60,594 bases of DNA from a virus. The position numbers were made by a program, and so were the translations under genes. The DNA lies in the IMG/VR virus record IMGVR_UViG_3300034110_000422, positions 1 through 60,594 of that record. One strand, 5' to 3'. Below are positions 1-45,407 of this stretch, one piece after another. Each line of letters starts with the position of its first letter. The first letter of the stretch is position 1. The notes under the pieces are model-generated. The model worked only from the letters and a program-made list of their open reading frames with translations, searched no databases and had not been told where the DNA came from.

Positions 1-3000
1 AGTGTAGGAACAAGTGGTAGTTCTGGTTCTGCGGGTTCTAGTGGAACTTCAGGTTCAACAGGAACATCAGGTAGTTCAGGTTCAAGTGGAGTAACTGGTT
101 CTTCAGGTACTAGCGGTTCTTCAGGAAGTTCTGGGTCATCAGGGTCTAGTGGAAGTGTTGGAACTAGCGGTTCATCTGGTACAAGTGGTTCATCAGGTAG
201 TTCAGGAAGTTCGGGTTCAAGCGGTAGTAGTGGAAGTTCAGGGTCAACAGGTTCAAGAGGAACATCAGGAAGTACTGGTACAAGTGGTTCGGCTGGTACC
301 TCAGGTTCAAGTGGAAGTTCAGGTAGTAGTGGATTAAGTGGTGTTGATGGTACTAATGGAACATCTGGAAGTTCTGGTTCAAGTGGTGTTAACGGAAGTT
401 CAGGAAGTAGTGGTACATCTGGTTCTAGTGGAAGTTCTGGCTCTGCTGGTAGTTCAGGTTCTGCAGGTACAAGTGGAAGTGTTGGAACATCAGGTTCTTC
501 AGGGAGTTCTGGTTCAAGTGGTTCTTCAGGAAGTTCTGGCTCAACAGGTTCAAGAGGAACAAGTGGTTCTTCAGGGACTTCAGGAAGTTCAGGGTCATCA
601 GGTGTTAGTGGTTCTTCAGGGACATCAGGTGTTAGTGGTTCTTCAGGGACATCAGGTTCAAGTGGAAGTTCAGGTTCTTCTGGTTCAAGTGGAAGTTCAG
701 GAACATCTGGCTCAACAGGAACTTCAGGGTCATCAGGTTCTAGTGGAAGTACTGGTACTTCAGGTAGTTCAGGAACATCAGGGACTAGTGGTTCGTCAGG
801 TTCTAGCGGTAGTGCTGGAAGCTCAGGAAGTTCTGGTTCTGTTGGTACATCAGGTTCTTCAGGTAGTTCAGGAACAAGTGGTTCATCAGGAATTTCAGGT
901 TCAAGTGGGTCTTCAGGAAGTAGTGGTAGTTCTGGTAGTACAGGGTCAAGTGGTACATCAGGAAGCTCTGGCTCAAGTGGAAGTAGTGGAAGTTCGGGTT
1001 CATCAGGTGTTAGTGGTTCGTCAGGTACAAGTGGTTCGTCAGGTTCTAGCGGAAGTTCGGGTAGTTCTGGCTCCTCAGGTAATACTGGCTCAAGTGGAAC
1101 AAGTGGTTCTTCAGGGACATCTGGCTCAAGTGGTAGTGCTGGTTCATCTGGCTCAAGCGGCTCATCAGGAAGTGCGGGTTCAAGTGGAAGTTCAGGTAGT
1201 ACAGGTTCAAGAGGTACTAGCGGAAGTTCAGGAACATCTGGGTCAACAGGTACTTCAGGAAGTAGTGGTAGTTCTGGTTCTGTTGGTACGTCAGGTTCTA
1301 GCGGTTCATCAGGAAGTAGTGGTAGTGCAGGTACTTCAGGTTCAGTAGGGACAAGTGGTTCTTCAGGAAGTGCTGGTAGTTCAGGTTCTGCAGGTTCTTC
1401 AGGAACATCAGGGGCTAACGGTTCTTCAGGTACAAGTGGTTCGTCAGGTTCTAGCGGTAGTACTGGAAGCTCAGGAAGTAGTGGTACATCGGGTGCCAAT
1501 GGAAGTAGTGGAACATCAGGTAGTTCGGGGTCTAGCGGAAGTGCTGGTTCAAGTGGAAGTTCAGGTTCTTCAGGAACATCAGGGTCCAGTGGTAGTTCAG
1601 GAAGTACAGGTTCTTCAGGTTCAAGTGGAACATCAGGAAGTTCAGGGTCTAGTGGTTCTTCAGGTTCTAGTGGTAGTGCTGGAAGTTCTGGTACATCAGG
1701 TGCTAATGGTAGTTCAGGAACATCTGGCTCAAGCGGTTCATCAGGTTCTAGTGGAAGTAGTGGTAGTTCTGGTTCTGTTGGAACATCAGGTTCTAGTGGA
1801 AGTAGTGGTAGTTCAGGGTCTTCAGGAAGTACTGGTTCAAGAGGAACAAGCGGTTCTTCAGGAACCTCAGGAACATCGGGGACATCAGGAAGCTCAGGTT
1901 CAAGTGGGTCTTCAGGAACTTCTGGTTCTAATGGTAGCTCTGGTACATCAGGTTCTTCTGGGTCAAGTGGTAGTTCGGGTTCAAGTGGTAGTTCAGGTTC
2001 ATCAGGAACATCTGGAGCCAATGGAAGTAGTGGAACATCAGGTAGTAGTGGTTCTAGTGGAAGTTCAGGTTCAACTGGTTCTTCAGGAAGTGCTGGTACA
2101 TCAGGTGCTAATGGAAGTAGCGGAACATCAGGTAGCTCTGGTTCTTCAGGGTCTAGCGGTTCTTCTGGTTCAAGTGGAAGTTCAGGAATATCAGGTTCTT
2201 CTGGTTCTTCAGGTAGTTCGGGGTCTAGTGGAAGTTCAGGGACATCTGGTAGTGGTGGAACGTCAGGTTCATCTGGTTCCAGTGGAAGTAGTGGTTCTAG
2301 CGGTAGTGCTGGTATTTCAGGTTCGGTAGGGACAAGTGGTTCTTCAGGAAGTGCTGGAAGTTCAGGCTCAAGTGGGTCTTCGGGTTCTAGCGGAAGTACA
2401 GGCTCAAGAGGAACAAGTGGTACTTCAGGAACTAGCGGTTCATCGGGTAGTACAGGAACAAGTGGTAGTTCTGGAACATCAGGCTCAAGTGGTAGTACAG
2501 GTAGTTCTGGTTCAAGCGGAAGTGTTGGTACATCAGGTACTTCAGGTTCTAACGGAAGTTCAGGAACATCAGGAAGTGCTGGGTCTAGTGGAAGCTCAGG
2601 TTCATCAGGGTCAAGTGGAACATCAGGTTCTAACGGAAGCTCAGGAACTTCAGGTTCAAGTGGGTCTTCGGGTTCCAGTGGAAGTAGTGGTTCTAGCGGT
2701 AGTTCAGGTACTTCAGGTTCAGTAGGAACAAGTGGTTCTTCAGGAAGTGCGGGTAGTTCAGGGTCAAGTGGAAATACAGGTTCATCTGGTACTAGTGGAA
2801 GTTCAGGCACATCAGGTAGTAGTGGAACATCAGGTTCTTCTGGTTCAAGTGGAAGTTCAGGTAGTACAGGTTCATCAGGAAGTTCTGGTTCATCGGGTAG
2901 TACGGGCTCAAGAGGAACTAGTGGTTCTTCAGGTACATCAGGGACAAGTGGCTCTTCAGGAAGTAGTGGAAGTTCAGGGTCATCTGGTTCTGCGGGTACA

Positions 3001-4311
3001 TCAGGTGCTAACGGAAGTTCAGGAACATCTGGCTCAAGTGGTAGTGCTGGAATCTCAGGAAGTAGTGGTAGTTCTGGTTCCGTTGGTACGTCAGGTTCTA
3101 GCGGTTCATCAGGAAGTTCTGGTTCAACAGGAAGTAGTGGGACATCAGGGACAAGTGGTTCGTCAGGTTCTAGCGGTAGTGCTGGAAGCTCAGGAAGTAC
3201 TGGTTCATCGGGTACATCAGGTGCCAATGGAAGCAGTGGAACATCTGGTTCAAGTGGTAGTTCAGGAAGTACAGGTTCATCGGGTTCTTCGGGTACATCA
3301 GGGTCAAGTGGTTCTTCAGGAAGTAGTGGAAGTTCTGGTAATACAGGTTCATCAGGAACGAGTGGGAGTTCAGGAACATCAGGTTCAAGCGGAAGTTCGG
3401 GCAGTTCAGGTTCGTCAGGTAATACTGGAAGTTCAGGAACATCAGGTTCATCAGGAACTAGCGGTTCATCAGGTAGTGCTGGCTCAAGTGGAAGTTCAGG
3501 TAATACAGGTTCTTCGGGTACAAGTGGTAGTTCTGGAACTTCTGGTTCTTCGGGTACTAGCGGTTCATCAGGGACATCCGGTTCAAGTGGGTCGTCAGGT
3601 TCTAGTGGAAGCTCAGGTAGTTCAGGAAGTACAGGCTCAAGAGGAACAAGTGGTTCATCTGGAACATCAGGTTCTAGCGGTACAAGCGGAACTTCAGGAA
3701 GTGCTGGTTCGTCGGGTAGTTCAGGTTTTGGTTCTTCAGGAACTAGCGGTTCTTCAGGAACATCTGGAAGCACTGGGTCATCAGGAAGTTCAGGTTCATC
3801 GGGTATTACAGGTTCTTCGGGTACTAGCGGTAGTTCAGGAACATCAGGTTCTTCTGGCTCATCAGGTTCAAGTGGAAGCTCAGGTTCTTCAGGTATTACA
3901 GGAAGTAGTGGAACTAGCGGTTCTTCAGGAAGTGCTGGTTCATCAGGTAGCTCAGGTTCAGGTTCATCAGGAACAAGCGGATTAGATGGTATTAGTGGAA
4001 CATCTGGTTCATCAGGTTTTGGTTCTTCAGGGACAAGTGGAAGCTCAGGAACATCAGGTTCAAGTGGTTCATCAGGTAGTTCTGGGTCATCAGGAAGTAC
4101 AGGTTCAAGAGGTACTAGCGGTAGTTCGGGAACATCAGGTTCATCGGGAACAAGTGGTTCTAGTGGAAGTTCGGGTTCTTCAGGTAGTTCGGGGTCTAGC
4201 GGAAGTTCAGGAACGTCGGGAAGCACTGGTTCATCAGGAACATCAGGTTCTGGTTCAAGTGGGTCATCAGGAAGTTCTGGTTCAGGTTCATCAGGTACCT
4301 CAGGAGCTGCG
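1..4311 (+). repeat. Degenerate 9-bp (Gly-X-Y) coding repeat tract
   Basis: The DNA is a tandem array of 9-base units of the type GGN-TCN/AGY-TCN/ACN/AGY, with synonymous codons freely mixed so that identity is kept at protein level more than at DNA level. A longer sub-motif, Gly-Ser-Thr-Gly-Ser-Arg-Gly-Thr-Ser-Gly, recurs eight times, with Arg codons at 256, 553, 1210, 1840, 2407, 2911, 3640 and 4108. A second recurrent block is Gly-Ala-Asn-Gly. The tract could shrink or grow by recombination and may be hard to assemble correctly. Confidence 0.85.
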
Positions 4312-4371
4312 GGTGGAACATTTACATTAGGACTTGTTTATACAACCGCAAACAATTTTAACTATATATAA
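1..4371 (+). CDS. Giant Gly-Ser/Thr triplet-repeat (collagen-like) fibre protein, 5' partial
   Basis: Reading frame 1 is open from the left edge to a TAA at 4369-4371, 1456 codons, and the start lies outside the window. Glycine occupies every third residue, and the other two positions are almost always Ser or Thr with scattered Ala, Val, Asn, Arg, Ile, Leu and Asp. I saw no proline codon. The Gly phase is kept without net shift from codon 3 to codon 1242, then is broken five times (Gly-Phe-Gly twice, Gly-Ser-Gly three times) before a short non-repetitive C-terminus ending in NNFNYI. Gly-X-Y repeats are common in phage tail fibres, but usually with Pro. The neighbours are virion adhesin-like genes, so I infer a long exposed fibre. 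The Ser/Thr density makes it a candidate for O-glycosylation by the transferases at 33.4-45.4 kb. It could also adopt a polyglycine-II-like fold instead of a collagen helix. Confidence 0.85.
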   Translation, partial: SVGTSGSSGSAGSSGTSGSTGTSGSSGSSGVTGSSGTSGSSGSSGSSGSSGSVGTSGSSGTSGSSGSSGSSGSSGSSGSSGSTGSRGTSGSTGTSGSAGTSGSSGSSGSSGLSGVDGTNGTSGSSGSSGVNGSSGSSGTSGSSGSSGSAGSSGSAGTSGSVGTSGSSGSSGSSGSSGSSGSTGSRGTSGSSGTSGSSGSSGVSGSSGTSGVSGSSGTSGSSGSSGSSGSSGSSGTSGSTGTSGSSGSSGSTGTSGSSGTSGTSGSSGSSGSAGSSGSSGSVGTSGSSGSSGTSGSSGISGSSGSSGSSGSSGSTGSSGTSGSSGSSGSSGSSGSSGVSGSSGTSGSSGSSGSSGSSGSSGNTGSSGTSGSSGTSGSSGSAGSSGSSGSSGSAGSSGSSGSTGSRGTSGSSGTSGSTGTSGSSGSSGSVGTSGSSGSSGSSGSAGTSGSVGTSGSSGSAGSSGSAGSSGTSGANGSSGTSGSSGSSGSTGSSGSSGTSGANGSSGTSGSSGSSGSAGSSGSSGSSGTSGSSGSSGSTGSSGSSGTSGSSGSSGSSGSSGSAGSSGTSGANGSSGTSGSSGSSGSSGSSGSSGSVGTSGSSGSSGSSGSSGSTGSRGTSGSSGTSGTSGTSGSSGSSGSSGTSGSNGSSGTSGSSGSSGSSGSSGSSGSSGTSGANGSSGTSGSSGSSGSSGSTGSSGSAGTSGANGSSGTSGSSGSSGSSGSSGSSGSSGISGSSGSSGSSGSSGSSGTSGSGGTSGSSGSSGSSGSSGSAGISGSVGTSGSSGSAGSSGSSGSSGSSGSTGSRGTSGTSGTSGSSGSTGTSGSSGTSGSSGSTGSSGSSGSVGTSGTSGSNGSSGTSGSAGSSGSSGSSGSSGTSGSNGSSGTSGSSGSSGSSGSSGSSGSSGTSGSVGTSGSSGSAGSSGSSGNTGSSGTSGSSGTSGSSGTSGSSGSSGSSGSTGSSGSSGSSGSTGSRGTSGSSGTSGTSGSSGSSGSSGSSGSAGTSGANGSSGTSGSSGSAGISGSSGSSGSVGTSGSSGSSGSSGSTGSSGTSGTSGSSGSSGSAGSSGSTGSSGTSGANGSSGTSGSSGSSGSTGSSGSSGTSGSSGSSGSSGSSGNTGSSGTSGSSGTSGSSGSSGSSGSSGNTGSSGTSGSSGTSGSSGSAGSSGSSGNTGSSGTSGSSGTSGSSGTSGSSGTSGSSGSSGSSGSSGSSGSTGSRGTSGSSGTSGSSGTSGTSGSAGSSGSSGFGSSGTSGSSGTSGSTGSSGSSGSSGITGSSGTSGSSGTSGSSGSSGSSGSSGSSGITGSSGTSGSSGSAGSSGSSGSGSSGTSGLDGISGTSGSSGFGSSGTSGSSGTSGSSGSSGSSGSSGSTGSRGTSGSSGTSGSSGTSGSSGSSGSSGSSGSSGSSGTSGSTGSSGTSGSGSSGSSGSSGSGSSGTSGAAGGTFTLGLVYTTANNFNYI

Positions 4372-5021: not shown

Positions 5022-5930
5022 ATGATTGACTATTATAATTTAGCTGACAATCAATATAAAAACCAAGTCTTTACAGGACCTATAGGTTCTAACACATCTT
5101 CAAGCATTTTTTATTGGGTCAAACCAAGAGGTATCACCATGATACACATCACGGCTATTGGGGGTGGTGGTGGAGGAGGTTCAGGAAACTCTTCAACGTC
5201 TACCGCTGCGTCTGGAGGTTCTGGTGGTGGTTCAGGTGCAATAACAAGATTAACCATTCCAGCAATTTTTTTACCTGACAGTTTAGAAATAACCGTTGCT
5301 GCTGGAGGTAATGGAGGAACTGGAGGAAGTGGAGGTGCCAATGCTGGGAATACTTTTGTGGATTGTGCTAGAGGTGGTGACGTTGCTGCGACAAGGGTCA
5401 TACAAGCTAATGGTGGCCAAGGTGGTAACGTAGGTGCTGCGGGAGCGGCTTCAACAGGAGGTGGTGCCGGTGCTATTGGAGCTCAAACTAATGCGGTATA
5501 TCAAGCTTTAGGTTCTTTTTTATCTATCGCAGGTCAGGCGGGTGCAGCAGGTGCAAATAGTGACGTAGGAGGTTCAATAACAATTGCTGGTAATAGTACA
5601 ACAGTATCAGGTGGCGCAGCTGGCGGTGGAAAAAGTGCGGCTAACGCGAATTTTAATGGTGGTACTGTTACTGGTACTGGATTAATACCTTCAGCTGCAG
5701 GTGGTACAGGTGGTGCGGCTGGAGGTGCTCAAAATGGTGGTAGTGGTACATTTTCACTTAAAGGATTTTATAGTGTTGGTGGTGCTGGTGGAGGTTCTGT
5801 TGCTGGAGGTACTGGAGGTTCTGGTGGTACGGGGCAGATTGGTAGTGGTGGTGGAGGAGGAGGTGCGGGAACTACAGGTGGTGCTGGAGGAAATGGTGGA
5901 CCCGGTATGGTAATAATTACATGTTGGTAA
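5022..5930 (+). CDS. Glycine-rich adhesin-like tail protein, paralogue 1
   Basis: 302 residues. An N-terminal segment (about 1-45) ends in a PRGITMIHITAIG beta-hairpin, followed by long glycine runs separated by short hydrophobic strands (ITRLTIPAIFLPDSLEITV near residues 75-95), and a C-terminus ending VIITCW. This is the plan of phage glycine-rich receptor-binding proteins, comparable to the polyglycine lattice of T-even gp38-type adhesins, although homology to gp38 itself cannot be shown here. It is the first of three tandem paralogues sharing all these landmarks, so a receptor-binding or fibre-tip role is likely. Confidence 0.7.
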   Translation: MIDYYNLADNQYKNQVFTGPIGSNTSSSIFYWVKPRGITMIHITAIGGGGGGGSGNSSTSTAASGGSGGGSGAITRLTIPAIFLPDSLEITVAAGGNGGTGGSGGANAGNTFVDCARGGDVAATRVIQANGGQGGNVGAAGAASTGGGAGAIGAQTNAVYQALGSFLSIAGQAGAAGANSDVGGSITIAGNSTTVSGGAAGGGKSAANANFNGGTVTGTGLIPSAAGGTGGAAGGAQNGGSGTFSLKGFYSVGGAGGGSVAGGTGGSGGTGQIGSGGGGGGAGTTGGAGGNGGPGMVIITCW

Positions 5931-5942
5931 TAAGTATATAAT

Positions 5943-6884
5943 ATGAGTTTTCAATTTAATTTAGCGGATGTTGGTTATAAGACCCAAGTGTTTTATCAGT
6001 CAGGATATTGGATTAAACCTCAAGGTATTACTATGATATCTATCACGGCTATTGGTGCTGGTGGTGGAGGAGGTGGAGGTGGAGCTAATACTCAAGCAAA
6101 CATTAGGTGCGGTGGTGCTGGTGGTGGTTCAGGTGGTATAACAAGAATAATAATTCCTGAAATGTTTATTACTGATTCACTTGTTGTAAGTATTGGTCTG
6201 GGAGGTTCCGGTGGACTAGCGGGTATTGCGATGGTAGGTGGAACTGGTGGTAGTACTTATGTTGATAATCAAGTAAATGGTAATGGTGACATTTATACTT
6301 TTGTTGTTGTCGCGTCAGGTGGAACAGGGGGAGGATTTGGGCAAGGTGTGGCTAATGCCAATGGAGGTGCTGGTGCAACTGCCGCTAACGTGTCACAGGC
6401 TTTATATTCAACATTAGGACAATGGTTTGCTATTGGAGGACAACAAGGTGGAGGAAGTTTTCCAGTAAACGGTACTGGTATTACAGTTACTTATGGTATA
6501 GATATAGGTCTACCCATTACATCAGGTGCTGGTGGAGGAGCTATGCCAGCTGGTAGTAATACAAGTTTTCCTGGAGGGGAAATCACAGGTTCCCCTGGTG
6601 GATTTGTACCTACAAATCCTAGAGGTACTGCTTCTTTTGCTAATGGTGGTCAAAGTGGAAATAAGGGAGCGTTTTCATTAACACCATTCTATTCCCTAGG
6701 AGGAAGTGGCGGAGGTAGTGGAGGTGGTGGAGGTGGAACACCTTCGTCTTCAGGTGGTACAGGAGGTGAGGGTAATATTGGGTGTGGAGGTGGTGGAGGT
6801 GGAGGTGGTACTACAAATGTTGGTGGTGTTGGTGGTGCTGGAGGAAGAGGTGGTAACGGTTTGGTAATAATACAGTGTTGGTAA
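5943..6884 (+). CDS. Glycine-rich adhesin-like tail protein, paralogue 2
   Basis: 313 residues with the same order of landmarks as its two neighbours: FNLADVGYKTQVF at the N-terminus, KPQGITMISITAIG before the first glycine run, a conserved ITRIIIPEMFITDSL strand pair, FSLTPFYSLGG about 90 residues from the end, and the C-terminal VIIQCW. The glycine-run segments between these anchors differ in length and content from the paralogues, as expected for host-range determinants. It starts 12 bases after the upstream stop. Role as receptor-binding protein is inferred. Confidence 0.7.
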   Translation: MSFQFNLADVGYKTQVFYQSGYWIKPQGITMISITAIGAGGGGGGGGANTQANIRCGGAGGGSGGITRIIIPEMFITDSLVVSIGLGGSGGLAGIAMVGGTGGSTYVDNQVNGNGDIYTFVVVASGGTGGGFGQGVANANGGAGATAANVSQALYSTLGQWFAIGGQQGGGSFPVNGTGITVTYGIDIGLPITSGAGGGAMPAGSNTSFPGGEITGSPGGFVPTNPRGTASFANGGQSGNKGAFSLTPFYSLGGSGGGSGGGGGGTPSSSGGTGGEGNIGCGGGGGGGGTTNVGGVGGAGGRGGNGLVIIQCW

Positions 6885-6894
6885 AAATATAACT

Positions 6895-7773
6895 ATGGAT
6901 TTTGCATATAATTTAACAAATATTGGTCATAAGGTACAAATCTTTAATAGTTCAGGTACCCATACTTGTACTTTACCTAAAGGTATTTCTATGGTACATA
7001 TTGTTACAATAAGTCCTGGCGGAGGTGGTGGTGGTGGATTTACAGATGCTACTGGAGCCGCTGGAGGTGGAGGTGGTGGAGGTACAGGAGCAATCAACCG
7101 TATCATTATCCCAAAAATATTTTTGACAGATAGTTTAATAGTTACAGTTGGTGCCGGAGGTGCCGGAGGTGCCGCAAATACTACAGGTTCTAACGGAGGG
7201 TCAACTTCTGTTGCAACAAATGTTGGTACTGCCGGTAACGCTCAAACATTTTTATTAATTAGTTCTGTGGGTGGTACAGGAGGAAACCCCGGAACTGTGA
7301 GTGCCGGTGGTACAGGAGGAGCAGCTAGTCCCGCATCGGCGGCAAACGTTATGGCTATGACCGCTTTAGGTGAGTTCGTATCAAGAGCAGGTATTGCTGG
7401 TGTTACCGGTAGTGCTACAGGTCTTCCTACTGTAAATACATACGGGGGAGGAGCAGTTCCACTTGTTTCGGGATGTGGTGGTGCGGGTCGTACCGCAGCT
7501 GACGTTCCTTCAGCTGGAGGTTCAATTTCAGGTAGAGGATTTGTACAGAGTGTTTCAGGAGGTACTTCAGGTGGTGGTAGAGGTCAAGATGGTATGTTTA
7601 TGTGGAAACCTTTTGTATCACTCGGTGGTACAGGTGGTGGTTCATCTACAGGTGTGGGTGGTAACGGTGGTGATGGAGGACCAGGTTGCGGTGGAGGTGG
7701 TGGTGGAGCAGGAACAACAGGAGGGACAGGAGGACGTGGTGGTGATGGTTTAATAATTATAACTTGTTGGTAA
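6895..7773 (+). CDS. Glycine-rich adhesin-like tail protein, paralogue 3
   Basis: 292 residues. It shares the anchors of the two preceding genes (YNLTNIGHKVQIF, LPKGISMVHIVTI, INRIIIPKIFLTDSL, FMWKPFVSLGG, C-terminal IIITCW). Long Gly-Gly-X runs fill the space between anchors. The conserved Cys-Trp terminus in all three copies suggests a shared structural end. Likely a receptor-binding or fibre-tip protein produced by tandem duplication. Confidence 0.7.
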   Translation: MDFAYNLTNIGHKVQIFNSSGTHTCTLPKGISMVHIVTISPGGGGGGGFTDATGAAGGGGGGGTGAINRIIIPKIFLTDSLIVTVGAGGAGGAANTTGSNGGSTSVATNVGTAGNAQTFLLISSVGGTGGNPGTVSAGGTGGAASPASAANVMAMTALGEFVSRAGIAGVTGSATGLPTVNTYGGGAVPLVSGCGGAGRTAADVPSAGGSISGRGFVQSVSGGTSGGGRGQDGMFMWKPFVSLGGTGGGSSTGVGGNGGDGGPGCGGGGGGAGTTGGTGGRGGDGLIIITCW

Positions 7774-7782: not shown

Positions 7783-8055
7783 ATGACATACGTTGAAATA
7801 TCAAATATAAACGGAACACCACCTTTTCAAATTTACTTATGTGACTATGGTGGAAATAATTGTTCTTTGGTTCAAACTGAATACGACCCGGTTTATTGGC
7901 CTGTAATAGTTTACTTACCAAATGTTTTAATTGGGTCAAGTCAGGTGATGTGTAAAGTTATTGATGGAAATTCTTGTGAGACTTTTAATATTTTAGTTTG
8001 TCCAAGTCCAACACCAACACCAACACCGACACCTACGCCAACACCCACACCTTAA
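7783..8055 (+). CDS. Small Cys-containing virion-like protein with Pro-Thr tail
   Basis: 90 residues. The globular part (1-73) has four Cys residues and the landmarks NINGTPPFQIYLC and CKVIDGNSC; the last ~17 residues are a Pro-Thr dipeptide repeat. It is a clear relative of the minus-strand 73-residue protein at 15596-15817 ([13 protein letters not shown] and [10 protein letters not shown]). The Pro-Thr tail matches the mucin-like linkers of the minus-strand protein at 13117-15591, so it may be a detached or modular fibre segment. Function unknown; the setting is virion fibre genes. Confidence 0.65.
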   Translation: MTYVEISNINGTPPFQIYLCDYGGNNCSLVQTEYDPVYWPVIVYLPNVLIGSSQVMCKVIDGNSCETFNILVCPSPTPTPTPTPTPTPTP

Positions 8056-16788: not shown

Positions 16789-16792
16789 TTAT

Positions 16793-16806
16793 TGTGAATA
16801 TTCACA
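16793..16806. promoter_or_regulatory. 14-bp perfect palindrome, candidate operator
   Basis: TGTGAATATTCACA is a perfect inverted repeat 21 bases before the start of a ribbon-helix-helix protein. Such proteins usually bind short palindromes and repress their own gene. It is followed by a short T-rich stretch, so a weak terminator for the primase gene is the alternative. Confidence 0.4.
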
Positions 16807-16827
16807 CTTTTATAGATATTTATTAAT

Positions 16828-16989
16828 ATGGGAAGAATAAAAAAAAATGAAAACGAAAAAAAAACAAAAGTTTCAGTAGCTCTTGAACCCGAACTTTTAA
16901 AATATTATAGGGGTTTACATATTAATTTATCTTCTTTGGTTAATAAACTACTAAAAGATTACCAACAAAATGAACACAAAAATTTGTAA
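16828..16989 (+). CDS. Small ribbon-helix-helix (CopG/Arc-like) DNA-binding protein
   Basis: 53 residues: a lysine-rich N-terminus, then a predicted beta strand (KVSVALE), helix 1 (PELLKYYRG) and helix 2 (LSSLVNKLLKDY), the ribbon-helix-helix order. As dimers these bind DNA with the strand. The gene overlaps the following HNH gene by 20 bases and follows a 14-bp palindrome that may be its operator. Probably a small transcriptional regulator. Confidence 0.65.
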   Translation: MGRIKKNENEKKTKVSVALEPELLKYYRGLHINLSSLVNKLLKDYQQNEHKNL

Positions 16990-18413: not shown

Positions 18414-18417
18414 AACT

Positions 18418-18615: not shown

Positions 18616-18616
18616 T

Positions 18617-22944: not shown

Positions 22945-22945
22945 G

Positions 22946-33372: not shown

Positions 33373-33443
33373 TGTGTATATTTTTTTGTAAAGATAATAT
33401 ATTCTATGGATTTATAAAATAAATATTGTTATTTTTTTTAGGT

Positions 33444-36835: not shown

Positions 36836-36837
36836 AA

Positions 36838-38562
36838 ATGAATATTGATAAGATAATTTTCTCAATTGATGATAACCCAAAATATCAGGGTTTATGGGAA
36901 ATAAATTCACAAATATGTAAAGAACATTTAGGTATTACTCCTGTTTTATTTCATATTACAGATGAAGACTCTGATTTTTATAATGATAAATGGGGTTTGG
37001 TTAAAAAAATAAAAGCATTACCAAATATTAATACAGGATTTCAGTCCCAAATATTTAGAATGTTTGGGACTAAATATTTCCGAGATGAAGTTTGTTTAAT
37101 ATCAGATATTGATATGTTATTGTTTGATAATGATTATATTAATTTACCGTTAAAAAAATATAATACAAATGATTTGATAATATATTCTAGTGATGCATAT
37201 GACACAAATAGAGAAGAATGTGTTGGAATTTATGGTAAAAACAGATACCCTATATGTTATAATTTAGGTACTAGCGAAGTTTTTAATAAAATATTAAATA
37301 CTAACCGTTCATTTGAAGAATATTGTTTAGATATAATAAATTCGGGATTTCCTTTACACGATAGTGATGAATTATATTTTGGTGATAAGGTTAATAATTT
37401 TAATCATGGGGTTAATATTGTTAAATTAAAAAGAGGATATTCAACACATTTTAAATGTCCTAATAGGATTGATAGAGTTAATGATGATATTTTTAATGAG
37501 TATGATGTGGATTTATTAAAAAATAGTAAATATATTGATTGTCATTTATCAAGACCGTATATTAAATATAAAAAAGAAATTGATAATATGAGAGATATAA
37601 TTTTAAACAAACAAAAAAAAGAAGTTTATCTTATTGGTTGTCATATTGATAATTTTAAACAAAAATCATTATTGTATGAATTAATAGATTTTTTGACTAA
37701 AAACAATAAAAATTTTGTTTTAACAAGTCACACTAATATTCCGAGTGATATTGTTGAAAAAAGTGTTGGGTTTATTTACGACTCAAATAACCCAAAATAT
37801 AAAACTTGGGATATTATTGGATTTCCTAAGTTTGTTTTTGAAACTGAAAATTTTAATATAGAATCACCTTATATAACTTATGGTTCTTCTGATTACTACC
37901 ATGTTGGTGTTATTAGATTAATTATTAATGGTATTAAGTATCTTAAAACTCTTGATTATGATATTGTTCATTGGATTGAATATGACTCAATTCCTGTAAT
38001 TGATATGGATAATAATGCTAATAAGTTATTGAACGAAAATGATTTTATTTTTTATGGTGTTGGTGCAAGATTTTCATTTAATTTATCTAAAGTAAATGAA
38101 GATTTTATTAACATGAATGATAATGTTATATTTAAAAATTTATCTGAAAATAATTTTTTAGCTGAACGATTAATTGGTAACAAATTGATTAATGGGGTTA
38201 AAAAAACTATATTTTTAAATGAAGATGATAGATTTCTTTGGGGTAGGTATTCACAAAATTTTAATAATCAAAAAATAAACTTTAGTTTATTTGAAAGTGG
38301 TGAAAATGTTAATCTTTTTATTACTAACATTTCCAGTGAAATTATCAATGTTTTAATTGAATATAAAAATGAAAATATTAATTTAGAAATCAATCCAAAC
38401 ATTTGGATTTGGAGAAATCTTTGTTTAGTTAATGATATTGGAAGTTTTAAAATTTCAATCATTGAAAATAATAATAGAACTATTATTATTAATGAAAATT
38501 TATCTGATGTTAAAAAATATGAATCTATAGTTAAATCAGTTAACTTTATTGAAAAAAAATGA
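36838..38562 (+). CDS. Two-domain glycosyltransferase-like protein
   Basis: 574 residues. Domain 1 (1-255) is GT-A-like, with a DxD-type site in CLISDIDMLLF (near 86-96) and a later FPLHDSDELYFGD. Domain 2 (about 263-460) starts KKEVYLIGCHIDNFKQKSLL, contains VLTSHTNIPSDIV and HWIEYDSIPVI, and resembles the second half of the transferase at 39766. A beta-rich tail of about 90 residues ends the protein. Part of the glycan cluster, 2 bases after the previous stop. Donor and acceptor cannot be read from sequence. Confidence 0.65.
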   Translation: MNIDKIIFSIDDNPKYQGLWEINSQICKEHLGITPVLFHITDEDSDFYNDKWGLVKKIKALPNINTGFQSQIFRMFGTKYFRDEVCLISDIDMLLFDNDYINLPLKKYNTNDLIIYSSDAYDTNREECVGIYGKNRYPICYNLGTSEVFNKILNTNRSFEEYCLDIINSGFPLHDSDELYFGDKVNNFNHGVNIVKLKRGYSTHFKCPNRIDRVNDDIFNEYDVDLLKNSKYIDCHLSRPYIKYKKEIDNMRDIILNKQKKEVYLIGCHIDNFKQKSLLYELIDFLTKNNKNFVLTSHTNIPSDIVEKSVGFIYDSNNPKYKTWDIIGFPKFVFETENFNIESPYITYGSSDYYHVGVIRLIINGIKYLKTLDYDIVHWIEYDSIPVIDMDNNANKLLNENDFIFYGVGARFSFNLSKVNEDFINMNDNVIFKNLSENNFLAERLIGNKLINGVKKTIFLNEDDRFLWGRYSQNFNNQKINFSLFESGENVNLFITNISSEIINVLIEYKNENINLEINPNIWIWRNLCLVNDIGSFKISIIENNNRTIIINENLSDVKKYESIVKSVNFIEKK

Positions 38563-39182
38563 TAGTAGGATTCAACGAATATAAACATAAGTATAACTTT
38601 AATGTTAATGGTGTTATACATGTTGGTGCCCATGTTGGTCAAGAGTATGATGAGTATATAAGAACATTTGGTGTAATACCTACATATTGGTTTGAACCTA
38701 TACCTCATGTGTATAGAGAACTATCTAAAAATTTAAATGGTAAACCTAACACATTTTATTATAATGTTGCAATAGGTGATAGAAATACTATACATGAAAT
38801 GTATCTTGATGAAGGTAATGAGCAACAAAGTTCCTCATTATTGAAACCAAATGAACATCAAAATTTTTACCCACATATTAAATTCAGTGAAAAAAATATT
38901 ATTAACATTACTTTAAGTACATTAGATTTTTATGATATAACTTCTTGTAATGTTTTAGTTTTAGACACACAAGGATATGAGTTAAACGCTCTTAAAGGTT
39001 CAATTAATACTTTAAAGAATATTGATTATATATTCACAGAGTTTAATCTGATTGAAATGTATGATGGTTGTCCATCAATTGAACAACTTGATGAATTTTT
39101 ATCACCATTTGGATTTCACAGACAAGAAACATGGTATGTTGATGGTGTTTGGGGTGATGCATTTTTTTTAAAAAAGATATGA
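38559..39182 (+). CDS. FkbM-family SAM methyltransferase
   Basis: 207 residues. SAM-binding GVIHVGAHVGQEYDEY (about 18-33), FEPIPHVYREL (45-55) and LVLDTQGYELNALKGS (130-145) are the family's hallmark segments. FkbM enzymes O-methylate sugars or natural products. It overlaps the neighbours on both sides by 4 bases; with the FkbM domain of the fusion at 33444 the cluster has two, so a methylated sugar is a likely product. Confidence 0.8.
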   Translation: MIVGFNEYKHKYNFNVNGVIHVGAHVGQEYDEYIRTFGVIPTYWFEPIPHVYRELSKNLNGKPNTFYYNVAIGDRNTIHEMYLDEGNEQQSSSLLKPNEHQNFYPHIKFSEKNIINITLSTLDFYDITSCNVLVLDTQGYELNALKGSINTLKNIDYIFTEFNLIEMYDGCPSIEQLDEFLSPFGFHRQETWYVDGVWGDAFFLKKI

Positions 39183-39766
39183 TTAAAAAAGCATTTATAG
39201 GTAATGGTGGACATTTGAGAGAAGTAATTGCCCATACAAATTATGATGTAATTAGATTTGTTGAAGACGAGTACTTCAAAGGTGAAGATAGAACATTACC
39301 GTTATCACAATTCAACTCAAAAGAATACTCAATTATGATTGCAATTGCCGATAGTCAGGTTAGGTCAAGAATTAAAAAATTATTACCTGAAGATACTAAA
39401 TATTTTTCATTCATTGACCCGTCAGCAATCTTAATGGACAGAAATATAGTAATTGGTGAGGGTTCATTTATTGGTGCTAACTGTGTTATTACTACAAATG
39501 TTAAAATTGGTAATCATGCTATTTTAAATAGAAATGTTAATATCGGACACGATGTGGTAATTGGTGATTGTTTTAGTGCTATGGCTGGTTCTGTAGTATC
39601 GGGTAATGTTTTAATTGGTGATAATTGTTACATGGGTAATAACTCATCAATAAGAGAAAAGATAACAATTTGTGATGATGTAATAATTGGAATGAATGGA
39701 AGTGTTGTTAAAGATATAGATAAACCTGGAACTTATGTTGGGGTTCCTGTAAATAAAATTAAATAA
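39179..39766 (+). CDS. NeuD/PglD-like sugar O- or N-acyltransferase
   Basis: 195 residues. An N-terminal Rossmann-like part (KKAFIGNGGHLREVIAHT) and a left-handed beta-helix of hexapeptide repeats from about residue 90 (VIGEGSFIGANCVIT, VKIGNHAILN, VNIGHDVVIGDC with the likely catalytic His, then GTYVGVPVNKIK). This is the architecture of NeuD/PglD acyltransferases that acetylate amino or nucleotide sugars. With a DegT-like domain upstream, an acetamido sugar is a plausible product. The stop overlaps the next ATG (TAATG). Confidence 0.8.
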   Translation: MIKKAFIGNGGHLREVIAHTNYDVIRFVEDEYFKGEDRTLPLSQFNSKEYSIMIAIADSQVRSRIKKLLPEDTKYFSFIDPSAILMDRNIVIGEGSFIGANCVITTNVKIGNHAILNRNVNIGHDVVIGDCFSAMAGSVVSGNVLIGDNCYMGNNSSIREKITICDDVIIGMNGSVVKDIDKPGTYVGVPVNKIK

Positions 39767-41502
39767 TGGAAAAATTACTTTCGGTCATTGTACCGTCCTA
39801 TAACTTTGAGAAATATCTTGAGGAGTGTATTGATTCAATCTATAATCAAAAAATTACATATGGATTTGAAGTTATTATTAGGGATGATAACTCAACAGAT
39901 AATACTAAAGATGTTTTAATTAAATTAAAAGAAAAATATCCTGATTTAATTATTTTAAATGGTGATGTTAATTTAGGGGCTCTTGAAAATATTAGAACTT
40001 TATTAAATTACTGTAAAACAAAATATATTGCGTATATTGACGGAGATGATTATTATGATAATTATACTATTTTAAATGAAGAAGTTGAGTTTTTAGAGAA
40101 TAGTCCAAACTACAGTATGGTTTGTACCGGAACAAGATATTTGTATCCTGATGGTACTAAGATACCTACAGTTCCTGAATTGTTTATTAGCTCATTTCTT
40201 GACGATGTAACAACAAATGATTTATTAACTATCAATCATGCATCTTTTGCAAGGGTGTTTAGAAACATACCAAATTTAATAAAGGATTATTTTACAAATT
40301 TACCTTATGTTGATTGGCCACTCAATTATGAAATTAGTAAACACGGTTTAATTAAGTGTATTCATAAATGTGGGGGAATTTATCGAATATCAAATGATGG
40401 TATGTTTTCAAATGTTTCGGAAGAAGAAAAAAACAAAAAAAACATAATAGTTTCTAATGAACTCAAAAGACAAAATATTAAAGATGAATTTAAAACAATA
40501 ACAATAGTCGATTGTTTTATCCATAATGAAAATGTTTTAAATAAGTTGGAGTTATGTATTAATAACTTAAAAAAGTATAACCATACAATACTTCTTGTGT
40601 CTAATACTATTGTTCCTGAACATATATTAAAAATTGTTGATTATCATTTATATAACTCAAATAACATTCTTTTTGAAGGTGAATACACTAATTCCGAACC
40701 AGTTATTTTTTGGAAAAACCTTGGTTCATTAACAACTCATGAAGTTACAAATACAATACAAAAACATGGATTACCTGTTATGGTTAATTTGTTTAACTCA
40801 TTAGATTTGTGTAAGTCATTTGGGTTTACACATTTCCAAAGAATTGAAGTTGATGATTTATATAGTGAAGAAGGTTATGAATATATGACAACTGTACCAG
40901 TTATTTGTTCTACTCAAAACAAAAAGGGAATGTTTTATTTTAATGAAGGTAGAGATGTTTCGTTCCATTATTTTTATTGTGAAATAGAATACTTCCAACA
41001 GATAATTAATCGGGTTAATTGTGAGGAAGATTATCGAAATTACTTACAAACTAATGGGTATGGTACTGATTTTATAAATGTTGAAAAATACCTTTATGAC
41101 AATATAAATAGAAAAGATTGTGGGTTATTAATTCGAAAAGATGGTGAGATTGATATGAACATTGATTTCCAAAATACGATATGGAATACGGAAACAACTG
41201 CTAGTAACGTATCCTCCAAATTTAGGGGATGTTCAACAAAACTTTATAACATTTCAGGACAAAATTCTATAATGTTATTATCTTACAATTACAATCACTT
41301 TAGGTCTGAAAGAAAAATAGTTGTTAAATATATTGATGGTAGTTCAGAAACTGTGTATCATGGGTTAGAAAATTATGGACATTGGTCATTTAATATTTTT
41401 GAAAGTAAGATTAAAAATATATCGGTATATGATAACCAAAATGATGAATTTTTATATGATTTTATAAATGAAAATATTCTTGATTATATTGTTTTTATAT
41501 GA
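39766..41502 (+). CDS. GT2 family glycosyltransferase with C-terminal modules
   Basis: 578 residues. Residues 1-230 are a classic GT2 domain: LSVIVPSYNFEKYLEECIDS, then VIIRDDNSTDNTKDVL and the metal site YIDGDDYYDN. Residues about 240-445 form a second domain (VDCFIHNENVLNKLELCINN, LVSNTIVPEHILK) related to domain 2 of the protein at 36838. The C-terminal ~120 residues are a beta-rich module. It transfers a sugar from a nucleotide donor; the acceptor is unknown. Confidence 0.75.
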   Translation: MEKLLSVIVPSYNFEKYLEECIDSIYNQKITYGFEVIIRDDNSTDNTKDVLIKLKEKYPDLIILNGDVNLGALENIRTLLNYCKTKYIAYIDGDDYYDNYTILNEEVEFLENSPNYSMVCTGTRYLYPDGTKIPTVPELFISSFLDDVTTNDLLTINHASFARVFRNIPNLIKDYFTNLPYVDWPLNYEISKHGLIKCIHKCGGIYRISNDGMFSNVSEEEKNKKNIIVSNELKRQNIKDEFKTITIVDCFIHNENVLNKLELCINNLKKYNHTILLVSNTIVPEHILKIVDYHLYNSNNILFEGEYTNSEPVIFWKNLGSLTTHEVTNTIQKHGLPVMVNLFNSLDLCKSFGFTHFQRIEVDDLYSEEGYEYMTTVPVICSTQNKKGMFYFNEGRDVSFHYFYCEIEYFQQIINRVNCEEDYRNYLQTNGYGTDFINVEKYLYDNINRKDCGLLIRKDGEIDMNIDFQNTIWNTETTASNVSSKFRGCSTKLYNISGQNSIMLLSYNYNHFRSERKIVVKYIDGSSETVYHGLENYGHWSFNIFESKIKNISVYDNQNDEFLYDFINENILDYIVFI

Positions 41503-42218
41503 AATATAAAATTAAATTAGTTCATTTACAGACAACACAAAATGAACACAGAGAAAAACTATCACGAAAATCTGTACAGCAAGTAATACCTTATGGTATT
41601 GAATATGTTTTACATCAAAATGAATTATATACTTCATTACCTCCAGTTCATACCAGTGTTAGACCACATAATGTTAGAATGGGTAAATATGAAGATGTTA
41701 ATGACCCTGAATACGGTAATGCGTTAACACCTGCTCACTACGGATGTTTTGAGGCATTTAAAATTGGAATCTTATCAGAATTTGATAACGATTTAGACTT
41801 CTTAATTGTATGTGAAGGTGATTGTATTATAGAAGTTCCGATTGAGGAGTTTATAGATAAAGTTAATCGAGTATGTAGTATTGTTAATCAGGAAGATATT
41901 TCTTATTTTTCATTTGGTGACACTAAAACTTTGGATTATGGATGGCATCAGTCTGACGTAGTTAGAGAAATACCAAATCAAGATTTATTGTTTATTACAA
42001 ATAAAATAATTGGTTTACAATGTATTATGTTTTCAAAAAAATCACGTAAAACAATTATGAACCAGTTAAGAACACATAGATGGGACTGTGCTGACACATT
42101 TTTTAATATTATATGTGCGGAACAGAGATTAAATATGGGTGTTCTAAAGAAGAGAATGACGACTCAGGCGGATGGTGAGTCGTTTATTGATAAAGAAAAT
42201 AAAATATTTTTAAAATAA
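41499..42218 (+). CDS. GT25-like glycosyltransferase
   Basis: 239 residues. The order of features resembles GT25 enzymes: an N-terminal HREKLSRKSVQQVIPYGIEY, then LTPAHYGCFEAFKIGI (the family's G..GC..SH-like segment) and an acidic DFLIVCEGDCII in place of the usual LEDD. No membrane segment. It overlaps the upstream GT2 gene by 4 bases. Assignment is moderate because the acidic motif is altered (EGD). Confidence 0.5.
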   Translation: MKYKIKLVHLQTTQNEHREKLSRKSVQQVIPYGIEYVLHQNELYTSLPPVHTSVRPHNVRMGKYEDVNDPEYGNALTPAHYGCFEAFKIGILSEFDNDLDFLIVCEGDCIIEVPIEEFIDKVNRVCSIVNQEDISYFSFGDTKTLDYGWHQSDVVREIPNQDLLFITNKIIGLQCIMFSKKSRKTIMNQLRTHRWDCADTFFNIICAEQRLNMGVLKKRMTTQADGESFIDKENKIFLK

Positions 42219-42230
42219 ATTAAAAATATT

Positions 42231-43256
42231 ATGATAGTAATTAATGATTTTGCTTTTTGTTTTTTGTCACAATACGATGTTGATATTGAAAGACAAGAAT
42301 GTGAATTAACAAAACTTTCAGATAAATTTCAGATTGAAAGATGGTATAGGAAAGATAGGAATTTATCTAAGTATATTTCATTTTCCCAAATGATTAATGA
42401 CGCTATAGATGATACCGACAGTGAATTTATGATTTTTTGTAATCCTAAAACAAATTTTACATCTAAAGATGTTGAATTTATGATAGATAAATTTTCAAAT
42501 GGATATTGTTTTGTGTCAGTTGTTAGTTTTGGATTTTTTGGATTTTCAAAAGAGTTAATTAGAAGGGTTGGAATGTTAGATGAGAAATTTATTGGAGCAG
42601 AATTTGAAGATGATGATTTTGCAATAAGGTTATCTCATTTTAAAAAGGCTGTTTGGTGGGGTTATAACTATGACAAATATATTTATTATTTGTCAAAATC
42701 TGAAAATTTAAAACATATATCATATTCTATTTTTAATAGAAAATATAAAATAGTTGATAAAAAAATTTATATAAATAAAGATTTATTTACACATAAGAAA
42801 ATTAGTAAACGGCATGCTAATCATTCTGATGAAATTTTTAATTCATGGAAAGACTCAAGTCAATCATTTGGTGATATACATTATGGTGAATACTTAAAAA
42901 ATTTTGAAACTGAAATAGTTGATTTTAATTTAACTGAAAAATTAACAAATTTTGAAATAAAAATTAAAAAAAATATATCTGATTTTTTTGTTGAATTATT
43001 GTCTGAAAATAAATTTGTAATTAAAATTGCAATTTTACAAAATTTTAATAAAGGTAGGACTATTCTTAAATATTTTGAAACTTTTAGTAATGGTTGGTAT
43101 AAATTTAATATAATTGACCCGTATGATAATCAATTATATACTGACGACGTTGAAATTAGAATTTTTATAGATGATAATCAAATATATAACAATACATTAA
43201 AAGAATACGAAGATTTATCTTTAAATTTTAACATACCTGTTTATGTTAATAATTAA
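42231..43256 (+). CDS. GT2-like glycosyltransferase with beta-rich tail
   Basis: 341 residues. A reduced GT-A-like domain at 1-160 ends with GMLDEKFIGAEFEDDDFAIRL, the acceptor-side ED/DD motif typical of GT2 enzymes; FMIFCNPKTNFTSKDVEFMI takes the place of the usual DxD segment, so the metal site may be altered. Residues about 220-341 form a beta-rich module like those in neighbouring transferases. Confidence 0.55.
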   Translation: MIVINDFAFCFLSQYDVDIERQECELTKLSDKFQIERWYRKDRNLSKYISFSQMINDAIDDTDSEFMIFCNPKTNFTSKDVEFMIDKFSNGYCFVSVVSFGFFGFSKELIRRVGMLDEKFIGAEFEDDDFAIRLSHFKKAVWWGYNYDKYIYYLSKSENLKHISYSIFNRKYKIVDKKIYINKDLFTHKKISKRHANHSDEIFNSWKDSSQSFGDIHYGEYLKNFETEIVDFNLTEKLTNFEIKIKKNISDFFVELLSENKFVIKIAILQNFNKGRTILKYFETFSNGWYKFNIIDPYDNQLYTDDVEIRIFIDDNQIYNNTLKEYEDLSLNFNIPVYVNN

Positions 43257-43274
43257 AAACATTATTATAGTAAT

Positions 43275-45407
43275 ATGAGAGTAACACAAGTAACACCAGG
43301 AATTATTACAATACCACCAAATGGATGGGGGGCTGTTGAAAAGGTAATATGGGAATATTACAACAACATTAAAGAATTAGGACATGAATGTGATATAAAA
43401 TATCTTAATGAAGTAGATACTAATAGTAGTGATATTATTCATATTCACATGGCTAATTTAGCAATTGATGCGGCTAACAAAGGAATACCTTACATTTTTT
43501 CATTACATGACCACCACGTTGTTTATTATGGTAAGGACTCATCTAACTACCAACAAAATTTAGAGGCGATTAAAAGGTCTGTGATATCTTTTACACACGC
43601 TGAGTTTTTAGTTGATTACTTTGATGAAACTGATAAGTTGTTCTACCTATCACACGGTGTTAATACTGAGTTTTTTAAAAATGATAATCCGAAAAGAACT
43701 GAACACAAATTATTGTGTTTGGCAAACAATGGTATTGGAGGGGATTCAACGTATGACAGAAAAGGATTTAGATATGCTATTGAGGCGGCAATCAAATTAG
43801 ATTTACCTATTACAGTTGCCGGCCCTGAAAACAATAGAATATTCTTTGAACATCATAATGACTTATTAAATTATGATAAGTTAACTTTAATGTTTTCAAA
43901 TCCAAACGAAGAACAAATATTAGAATTATATAAAAGTCATTCTATATTCTTACATCCTTCTATGTTAGAGGCCGGTCATCCAAACCTAACATTATTAGAG
44001 GCTGTGTCTTGTAATATCCCAGTTGTTGGTACTTACTTAGGTTCACAAACGATAGAAGGGATGGTAGTGGTTGAAAGAGATGTAAATCAAATTGTTACTG
44101 GTGTTAAACAAGTTATTGATAATTATGATTTATATCTAAGTAATACTGAATTAGATAGACAAAAATACAATTGGAGTGTTATTACCAAAAGAATGGTTAG
44201 AATCTATGAGGACCTTATTAATAGTAGAAAGAATTTGAATAGTCTTGAGACTAAACAAAGATTTGATAAAGTATTTGAGAATACTGAAATAAAACCAAAA
44301 GAGATGGTTGAAAAAATTGAAGTTATTAACCATTATATCAATGGAGCGTTAGTTGAAATTAAAGGTAATACTGATAAGAAATATTTAGTTGAGTTTTGGA
44401 ACCAAAATGGTGATTGTGAGTATCGTGAGGAGATTGGGTGTAATATGTGGGTTAGATTGAATAAAAAGTATTTTGATGAGTATACTTTGAAAATTTACTC
44501 TGAAGGTAACTTAATTAGTGAGAAGAAATATAACGCAGAAAACAAACGAGTTTATATTGCATTAGATTCAAAATCTTTGGGTGATACATTTGCTTGGGTA
44601 CCTTACGCCGAAGAATTCAGAAAGAAACATAATTGTAAGGTCATCTGTTCAACGTTCTTTAACGATTTGTTTGTAAAACAATATCCTGAGATACAATTTG
44701 TTTCACCTGGTAGTACGGTTGATAACCTATATGCTATGTATGAGATAGGTTGGTTCTACGATGGTGATAATGTTAAAACGGATAGACACCCAAGTGATTT
44801 TAAATTAGGACCATTACAAAAAACCGCGACAGACATTTTAGGTTTGGAATATAAAGAAGTTAAACCTTTAATCAAAAACCCTAACAAGTTAAAGAAAAAA
44901 CGAGTTGGATTAGGTATCCACTCAACGGCTCAATCCAAGTATTGGAATAATCCAAAGGGATGGCAAGACATTACTGATTATCTAATATCTCTTGGTTACG
45001 AGGTTATTATCTACTCAAAAGAGGAAGATGGGTATATGGGTAATTACTATCCTAAAGGTGCTAAACAAAACCCTTCAGGTTCCATCTATAAACTGATAGA
45101 AGAATTATCTACCTGTGAATTCTTTATAGGAATATCAAGTGGGATATCATGGGTAACTTGGGCGTTGGATATCCCGACAGTATTGATTTCAGGATTTACT
45201 GAAGAGTTTAACGAACCTTATAATAATGTTTATAAGGTGAGTGCTCCTGAAAATACTTGTAGAGGATGTGCTAATAAATTTAGATTAGACCCAGGTGATT
45301 GGAATTGGTGCCCGATAAATAAAGGAAATGAAAAGATGTTTGAATGTTCTAAAAGGATAACATCTGAGATGGTAAAAGATAAAATTATTGAATTACTTGG
45401 TAAGTAA
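43275..45407 (+). CDS. GT4 glycosyltransferase fused to a TibC-type protein O-heptosyltransferase
   Basis: 710 residues. Residues 1-320 are a GT4 domain (ITIPPNGWGAVEKVIWEYY, HPSMLEAGHPNLTLLEA). Residues 335-420 are a beta-rich module. Residues about 424-710 match autotransporter (strand-loop-strand) heptosyltransferases: YIALDSKSLGDTFAWVPYAE, HSTAQSKYWNNPKGWQ, SKEEDGYMGN, FIGISSGISWVTWALDIPTV, and a Cys motif with Cys662, Cys665, Cys679 and Cys691 (TCRGCANK ... DWNWCP ... FECSKRITSE) corresponding to the iron finger of TibC. Those enzymes attach heptose to serines of repeat proteins. In this phage the Ser/Thr-repeat fibre at 1-4371 is the obvious candidate acceptor (inference). Last gene of the cluster. 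Confidence 0.85.
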   Translation: MRVTQVTPGIITIPPNGWGAVEKVIWEYYNNIKELGHECDIKYLNEVDTNSSDIIHIHMANLAIDAANKGIPYIFSLHDHHVVYYGKDSSNYQQNLEAIKRSVISFTHAEFLVDYFDETDKLFYLSHGVNTEFFKNDNPKRTEHKLLCLANNGIGGDSTYDRKGFRYAIEAAIKLDLPITVAGPENNRIFFEHHNDLLNYDKLTLMFSNPNEEQILELYKSHSIFLHPSMLEAGHPNLTLLEAVSCNIPVVGTYLGSQTIEGMVVVERDVNQIVTGVKQVIDNYDLYLSNTELDRQKYNWSVITKRMVRIYEDLINSRKNLNSLETKQRFDKVFENTEIKPKEMVEKIEVINHYINGALVEIKGNTDKKYLVEFWNQNGDCEYREEIGCNMWVRLNKKYFDEYTLKIYSEGNLISEKKYNAENKRVYIALDSKSLGDTFAWVPYAEEFRKKHNCKVICSTFFNDLFVKQYPEIQFVSPGSTVDNLYAMYEIGWFYDGDNVKTDRHPSDFKLGPLQKTATDILGLEYKEVKPLIKNPNKLKKKRVGLGIHSTAQSKYWNNPKGWQDITDYLISLGYEVIIYSKEEDGYMGNYYPKGAKQNPSGSIYKLIEELSTCEFFIGISSGISWVTWALDIPTVLISGFTEEFNEPYNNVYKVSAPENTCRGCANKFRLDPGDWNWCPINKGNEKMFECSKRITSEMVKDKIIELLGK

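Follow-up and report, generated by a model that had tools for sequence, protein, structure and literature searches.

Phage TibC-type glycosyltransferases associated with proline-free Gly-Ser/Thr repeat fibres: a candidate route of virion protein O-glycosylation

TibC, a member of the BAHT family, moves heptose onto serine, not threonine, of its adhesins; the enzyme forms a ring-shaped dodecamer and also modifies synthetic peptides in vitro (PMC4358343). Two phage studies, PMC7029224 among them, take the glycosyltransferases of phages as modifiers of lipopolysaccharide (LPS), cell wall, or DNA. Among the literature matches listed, from a coverage that leaves out most subscription journals, none linked TibC-type enzymes to phages or to Gly-Ser/Thr repeats. 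We analyzed the whole of the virus record IMGVR_UViG_3300034110_000422 (60,594 bases; here, the window), which carries a gene for a TibC-type enzyme within a cluster of sugar genes (33426-45407) and, at its 5' end, a gene for a fibre made of Gly-Ser/Thr repeats (Table 1). We consider it likely that the phage O-glycosylates its own repeat fibre with the TibC-type enzyme and extends the glycan with the glycosyltransferases fused to it and encoded nearby. This proposal, raised in an earlier note on the same DNA, is well supported, albeit indirectly, by the identity of the enzyme, the conservation of its active site, its co-occurrence with and nearness to repeat genes, and gene pairs in bacteria.

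The frame of the fibre gene is open at the 5' end, and its 1456-residue product contains 726 Ser, 484 Gly, 147 Thr, and no Pro; the earlier description of a protein made almost purely of Gly, Ser, and Thr holds, these residues making up 93% of it. Its longest unbroken Gly-X-Y runs comprise 249 and 163 triplets, the Collagen model PF01391 matches it with 625 bits, and it matches many collagen-like tail-fibre PHROGs, matches that rest on the repeat itself. Because the corresponding frame of a 242-kb relative (G006) is longer (2636 residues, with a nonrepeat N terminus) and has nearly identical last residues, the window holds the 3' part of a cut gene. It is a collagen-like fibre gene, and the triple helix of its product is putative. 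The minus-strand frame at 3-4226, with Pro-x-x-Pro repeats, is an antisense shadow of this gene.

The TibC-type domain recognized in the earlier reading was confirmed: residues 369-705 of the fusion protein encoded at the 3' end of the cluster match TIGR04414 (Aah/TibC O-heptosyltransferase) with 262 bits against a cut-off of 200, and in the PDB the protein matches only TibC (4rap, 4rb4) at E 0.001 (4rap, E 3e-52). An AlphaFold2 model of the domain, built with an alignment of 31 homologues, had a mean pLDDT of 89.2 and TM-scores of 0.81-0.85 to TibC (0.85 to 4rap); the next fold matches listed, LPS heptosyltransferases and another GT9 enzyme, reached 0.39-0.54. The N-terminal beta-barrel domain of BAHTs is putative here: seven strands precede the catalytic part of the model, and PF21129 matched two of 10 relatives scanned, both under cut-off. 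No autotransporter model was found among the window proteins scanned, which cover part of the window's proteins.

When the domain was mapped onto the TibC residues tested by Yao et al. (PMC4358343), the equivalents of Asp110, Thr226, Lys230, and Trp305 (D437, T551, K555, and W626) and all four iron-finger cysteines (C662, C665, C679, and C691) were found to be kept; the equivalent of Arg286 is Leu (L607), and that of Pro300 is Ser (S621), as in AAH. The same pattern recurs among 47 phage TibC domains, six of them near-copies from the window's species: Asp110, Lys230, Trp305, and the four cysteines are present in all 47 and Thr226 in 46, while position 286 is Val (33), Leu (8), Ala (2), Ile (2), or Arg (2) and position 300 is Gly (34) or Ser (13). 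The thumb tip (the F265-V266 positions) has Tyr in 29 and Met in 30 of 31 domains, and Phe is found at F368 in 30 of 31. In TibC, Arg286 contacts adenine and is said to be highly conserved in the BAHT family, Pro300 is the stereoselectivity residue, and a hydrophobic thumb tip is needed for the dodecamer (PMC4358343). Since the catalytic residues and the thumb are kept and Arg286 is lost, this seems to be an active enzyme of TibC-like build, but one for which an ADP-heptose donor cannot be assumed; judged by these residues, phage-type enzymes may use another donor. Heptose as the sugar, which the earlier note had entertained, is unsupported, given the loss of Arg286 and a single match of the gmhA model, below its cut-off, over 46 TibC-positive records; a supply of heptose by the phage is likewise unsupported. 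Speculative, too, are the note's further ideas that the phage makes a modified sugar of its own and that the sugar shields the fibre or alters receptor binding. That gmhA-like gene (G030:C1:64359-64814, 180 bits) lies in a record that also has TibC and a giant repeat fibre. In a tree of 66 domains, the classical enzymes form one branch (100/100), apart from which the phage-type enzymes branch, and a methanotroph group (100/100) falls inside the phage sequences. A TibC relative on an archaeal metagenome-assembled genome (MAG) contig (L680, match at 2299-3279) keeps the catalytic residues and, within the aligned stretch, lacks all four iron-finger cysteines.

Co-occurrence of enzyme and repeat was examined in relatives fetched by their SbcC-type protein (gp46) without regard to TibC (70 loci). 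Of their records, 47 were 50 kb or longer, and 46 of these were used; the one left out (L209) is positive for both TibC and collagen. TIGR04414 was present in 16 of the 46 records and a (Gly-Ser/Thr-Ser/Thr)x5 DNA pattern in 24, with both in 16, TibC alone in 0, the repeat alone in 8, and neither in 22. The earlier note had advised looking for relatives that have the cluster and no repeat protein; none appeared in this lineage, where the repeat is found in 16/16 TibC-positive versus 8/30 TibC-negative records (Fisher p 8e-7, the records not being independent: several are pieces of one phage, and G053-G056 and G063 are identical in gp46). Of the eight records with the repeat alone, six are pieces of the window's species (97-99% identical in gp46), the fuller records of which carry TibC, and one of the other two has a single pattern match. 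A general correlation with glycosyltransferases was considered and rejected: GT2 is found in 26 of the 46 records, and records of 309, 223, 184, and 178 kb (the first and last being the same phage by gp46) have neither TibC nor repeat, yet show two to five GT2 matches each. FkbM, present in 18 of the 46, tracks TibC more closely than GT2 does (15/16 TibC-positive versus 3/30 TibC-negative records) and may therefore belong to the module.

The association also appeared when IMG/VR records were picked solely by the repeat. A x7 version of the DNA pattern gave 120 stretches, and the 80 loci listed included 38 distinct records of at least 40 kb, one being of the window's own species; TIGR04414 was found in 19 of these 38 (18 over cut-off) and in none of 44 control records, 18 of which were picked by an arbitrary 15-mer and 26 by a GGNCC repeat, a palindromic pattern that favours GC-rich DNA. 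One TibC-positive record (G093, with locus L087) matched both the repeat and GGNCC patterns and was counted on the repeat side alone (counted otherwise, the controls stand at 1/45), and a TibC-negative record found in both scans (that of L168) was counted as a control. In the forward direction, 48 records of at least 38 kb from 79 listed TibC loci were searched for collagen, which matched in 40 (39 over cut-off); five of the eight without a match are fragments of the window's species. The stricter x5 pattern was found in 16 of 26 records, or 15 of 25 TibC-positive ones, the 26th being a record without a TibC test. Seven records closely related to one another (G073-G076, G086, G087, and G090; L271-L277 and L287-L300) have two TibC domains over cut-off each and a weak, partial third.

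Enzyme and repeat genes also tend to lie close together. Among 16 TibC-positive records of at least 94 kb, the closest Ser/Thr-rich Gly-X-Y gene was within 6.2 kb of TibC in 12 (combined p for nearness, 2.6e-4). This test leans towards nearness because eight of its first 14 records were chosen from loci where a Gly-X-Y gene had already been seen at 10 kb or less, and G091, G093, G111, and G116 came from the repeat-picked set; five further eligible records (G033, G110, G113, G117, and G121) lie outside it, and in the first of these (locus L046) the distance is about 8.3 kb. The repeat gene may stand 5' or 3' of TibC, on either strand. All nine repeat proteins scanned match tail-fibre PHROGs, partly via the repeat itself, and three of four scanned against Pfam (G091, G044, and G042) end in an S74 intramolecular chaperone, two of them adjoining TibC. 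Three distinct INPHARED records have TibC: Microcystis phage Mel-JY01 (PP395634; host listed as Microcystis elabens), with a repeat frame on each side of its TibC gene, one of at least 1016 residues at 1.7 kb and one of about 180 residues at 1.0 kb; a 735-kb record with a Gly-X-Y frame at 3.6 kb; and a 636-kb record taken up below. In PP395634, the annotated gene at 739-2298 (-) is the antisense shadow of a repeat frame, so Gly-Ser/Thr repeat fibres are easily missed where annotation takes the shadow instead. At 102348-108917, G093 has two collagen-like frames that are rich in Pro (34 and 44% of X/Y positions) beside a Pro-free Ser/Thr one.

The surroundings of TibC are recurrent as well. Eight of 10 phage TibC proteins scanned have a GT4 domain in the same frame, three have FkbM, and two have another methyltransferase domain. 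A GT4 with the PHLSTGG signature near its start, like the one that opens the window's cluster, was seen in 30 of 41 TibC loci, the window included, and in none of 23 control loci, which are shorter than most of the TibC loci.

A two-gene version occurs in bacteria. A scan of genome contigs gave nine TibC loci, of which those of Anaerovibrio and Commensalibacter are classical enzymes with Arg286 kept, one is from Methylomicrobium sp. RS1, and the others are MAG contigs. In RS1, a 419-aa TibC relative faces, across 109 bp, a 233-aa protein that contains 17 Gly-Thr-Ser repeats and, by eye, begins like a signal peptide; the x7 pattern occurs at this locus and nowhere else in the 4.7-Mb genome. Among 301 genomes drawn from Methylococcales, the order of Methylomicrobium, 15 had TIGR04414 over cut-off, six of them classical (class A; 654-663 bits, Arg286 kept in all six) and nine phage-like (class B; 303-327 bits, Arg286 lost or unaligned). 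Within loci of about 4 kb, an adjacent secreted-looking repeat frame was found at eight of the nine phage-like versus none of the six classical loci (Fisher 0.0014, the genomes being related; a second class-A gene, in G258, is outside this comparison). These eight neighbours, less than 120 bp away, are 237-326 residues long, begin like signal peptides, and contain a Gly-Thr/Ser/Ala tract, and the pairs are both co-directional and convergent. The triplet register is loose in one of them (L708), so strict triple-helix formation may be dispensable.

Several observations weigh against the repeat fibre as the substrate of the TibC-type enzyme. The two genes are 38 kb apart in the window's own species and 12, 37, and 115 kb apart in three others, and the 636-kb phage lacks a Gly-X-Y frame within 20 kb of TibC. 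Outside the window's lineage there are other cases of TibC with no repeat gene nearby, the main exception being a clade (L054, L066, L070, and L079) in which a giant gene, fibre-like by eye and with few or no Gly-X-Y runs, is followed directly by a GT4 and a single-domain TibC; the GT4 of L079 also departs from the PHLSTGG signature. The x5 pattern is missing from 10 of the 25 TibC-positive records, namely, five fragments of the window's species, G043 (which has a mixed-repeat fibre), and four more of 43-45 kb from other phages, of which two belong to the clade with the giant gene. In bacteria, a Gly-X-Y gene was found at just two of the nine genome-contig loci (L677 and L683) and the x7 pattern in one of these genomes (RS1); L678-L682, in or near the phage-type branch, have no Gly-X-Y gene, and one of the nine phage-like methanotroph loci (L704) has no repeat neighbour. 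A tree-based independent-pairs test, with four to five of nine pairs agreeing and none opposing (p 0.06-0.13), is too small. The fibre glycan itself is putative, and other genes of the cluster could serve a different product.

A rival explanation is that virion proteins are glycosylated, but chiefly a different part of the fibre or another tail protein, with the repeat as a correlate. The giant fibre-like gene of the L054 clade (L054, L066, L070, and L079), with 18-25% Ser plus Thr, fits such a reading; the eight methanotroph neighbours, however, have in common a signal-peptide-like start and the Gly-Thr/Ser/Ala tract, and we regard this explanation as improbable. Slightly less doubtful, though still unlikely, is that the cluster alters the LPS O-chain or capsule of the host and thereby blocks superinfection, as proposed in pelagimyophages. 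The GT2 protein does match a GtrB-like O-antigen conversion PHROG, and the authors of PMC7029224 propose such a role for the glycosyltransferases of their own phages. Characterized relatives of the TibC domain act on proteins, however, and the genes around TibC in RS1 are not sugar-gene-like (translations, by eye). GT2 is also present in large relatives without TibC or repeats (G053, G054, G061, and G062), and the repeat therefore tracks TibC more closely than glycosyltransferases generally. It is very improbable that enzyme and repeat have no functional link and, both being frequent in large aquatic phages, meet by chance: although the records are pieces of phages related to one another and the independent-pairs test does not reach significance by itself, chance sits poorly with 16/16 versus 8/30 within one lineage, the 0/44 controls, the nearness of the genes, and the bacterial pairs.

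If the repeat fibre is the substrate, the TibC-type domain would act as a cytoplasmic, polypeptide-directed O-glycosyltransferase, moving a sugar from a nucleotide donor onto Ser, and perhaps Thr, in the Gly-Ser/Thr repeats, either ahead of virion assembly or in the course of it. The cytoplasm is where phage fibres are synthesized, so an enzyme of the TibC kind could coat a Ser-rich repeat there. We infer that TibC would start the glycan, which the fused GT4 and the neighbouring GT4 and GT2 would lengthen and the products of the FkbM and acyltransferase genes may methylate or acylate. The sugar coat would probably make the Pro-free shaft stiff, soluble, and protease resistant, and it may also affect adsorption; stiffening and protection of the shaft is our first choice and adsorption our second. 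More tentatively, and with slightly less than an even chance in our judgment, class B may be a distinct TibC branch dedicated to Pro-free Gly-Ser/Thr repeats, with a donor other than ADP-heptose, present in many large phages and in methanotroph chromosomes and making glycosylated collagen-like fibres or linkers in which sugar takes the stabilizing part played by hydroxyproline in animal collagen.

Table 1. Genes of the fibre region and the sugar cluster in the window
Feature	Position	Strand	Basis
3' part of Pro-free Gly-Ser/Thr-Ser/Thr collagen-like fibre gene (5' part beyond the window)	1-4371	+	Composition, PF01391, tail-fibre PHROGs, relative G006
Three tail-type, Gly-rich proteins that follow the fibre	5022-5930, 5943-6884, 6895-7773 (span 5022-7773)	+	
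GT4 with N-terminal PHLSTGG signature, FkbM methyltransferase, and DegT-like stretch in one protein	33426-36035	+	Family models
DUF1796 protein	36032-36835	+	PF08795, 42 bits
Unrecognized protein, glycosyltransferase-like by eye alone	36838-38562	+	No family match
FkbM methyltransferase	38559-39182	+	PF05050, 62 bits
NeuD/PglD-like sugar acyltransferase (hexapeptide protein)	39179-39766	+	TIGR03570, 147 bits (under cut-off 160.8); PF00132
GT2 glycosyltransferase with long C-terminal part	39766-41502	+	PF00535, 89 bits
Two unrecognized proteins	41499-42218, 42231-43256 (span 41499-43256)	+	No family match
GT4-TibC fusion, proposed initiating protein O-glycosyltransferase	43275-45407 (TibC domain 44379-45389)	+	TIGR04414, PDB, residues, model

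Both FkbM domains reported earlier for the cluster were found by family models, which gave four glycosyltransferase domains (GT4, GT2, GT4, and TibC/GT9) where at least five had been claimed; the NeuD-like and DegT-like matches exist, the former short of its cut-off and the latter partial. The three unrecognized products (36838, 41499, and 42231) had no match at E 0.01 in Pfam, NCBIfam, or PHROGs. Of the tail-type proteins after the fibre, the first and third match minor tail or tail fibre PHROGs (the first also PF21722), and the second was so called from reading its sequence alone. The earlier claim of Pro/Thr-rich virion proteins stands for composition: the 824-residue frame at 13117-15591 has Pro-Thr linkers (Thr 22%, Pro 11%) and the product of 7783-8055 a short Pro-Thr tail. 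The former, a minus-strand gene adjoining the tail genes, with propeller-like repeats at its C terminus judged by eye, is a putative virion protein. Elsewhere in the window, 57546-58421 matches the RXYLT1 C-terminal domain (PF24785) and is a possible extra glycosyltransferase outside the cluster; 46297-47178 encodes a D12-class adenine DNA methyltransferase and 58418-59275 another DNA methyltransferase; and a DnaJ-like protein, recognized from its translation alone, is encoded shortly 5' of the cluster (32063-32983). No host is inferred for the phage, since the DNA at 16001-23990 is similar to named phages (six records) over 2-3% of the query.

If the proposal is true, it explains how very long phage fibres can be built from Pro-free Gly-Ser/Thr repeats, provides a substrate for a family of phage enzymes found at 232 or more places in IMG/VR, and adds a phage route of TibC-kind protein O-glycosylation; the bacterial version, a TibC gene and a gene for a secreted-looking repeat protein, makes the question testable. 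Glycosylation of virions by viruses is already known, and what would be new here is a BAHT-like branch that has another kind of partner and may use another donor. The spore protein BclA is, unlike a phage fibre, a cellular protein, with Pro in its repeats and other enzymes acting on it. It is nonetheless a glycosylated collagen-like protein of Bacillus (PMC8968730). Mimivirus L230, a collagen lysyl hydroxylase/glucosyltransferase, is an example of a virus modifying its own Pro-poor collagen-like protein, but its target is hydroxylysine, it resembles human GLT25D1, its host is eukaryotic, and the review passages on it mention no relation to TibC (PMC9614988). In mycobacteriophages, phage-encoded enzymes glycosylate virion proteins (Freeman et al. 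2023, as described in citing papers), and the citing passages mention neither TibC nor Gly-Ser/Thr repeats. The closest likeness is to TibC and AAH themselves, with which the phage enzymes share the predicted fold, catalytic base, phosphate-binding Thr and Lys, Trp305, iron finger, and thumb tip, as well as a tie to the gene of a repetitive Ser-rich acceptor; they differ in their separate branch, in the replacement of Arg286 (45/47) and the Gly or Ser at position 300, in their frequent fusion to GT4 and occasional fusion to a methyltransferase, and in having as their recurrent partner a Gly-Ser/Thr repeat protein rather than an autotransporter.

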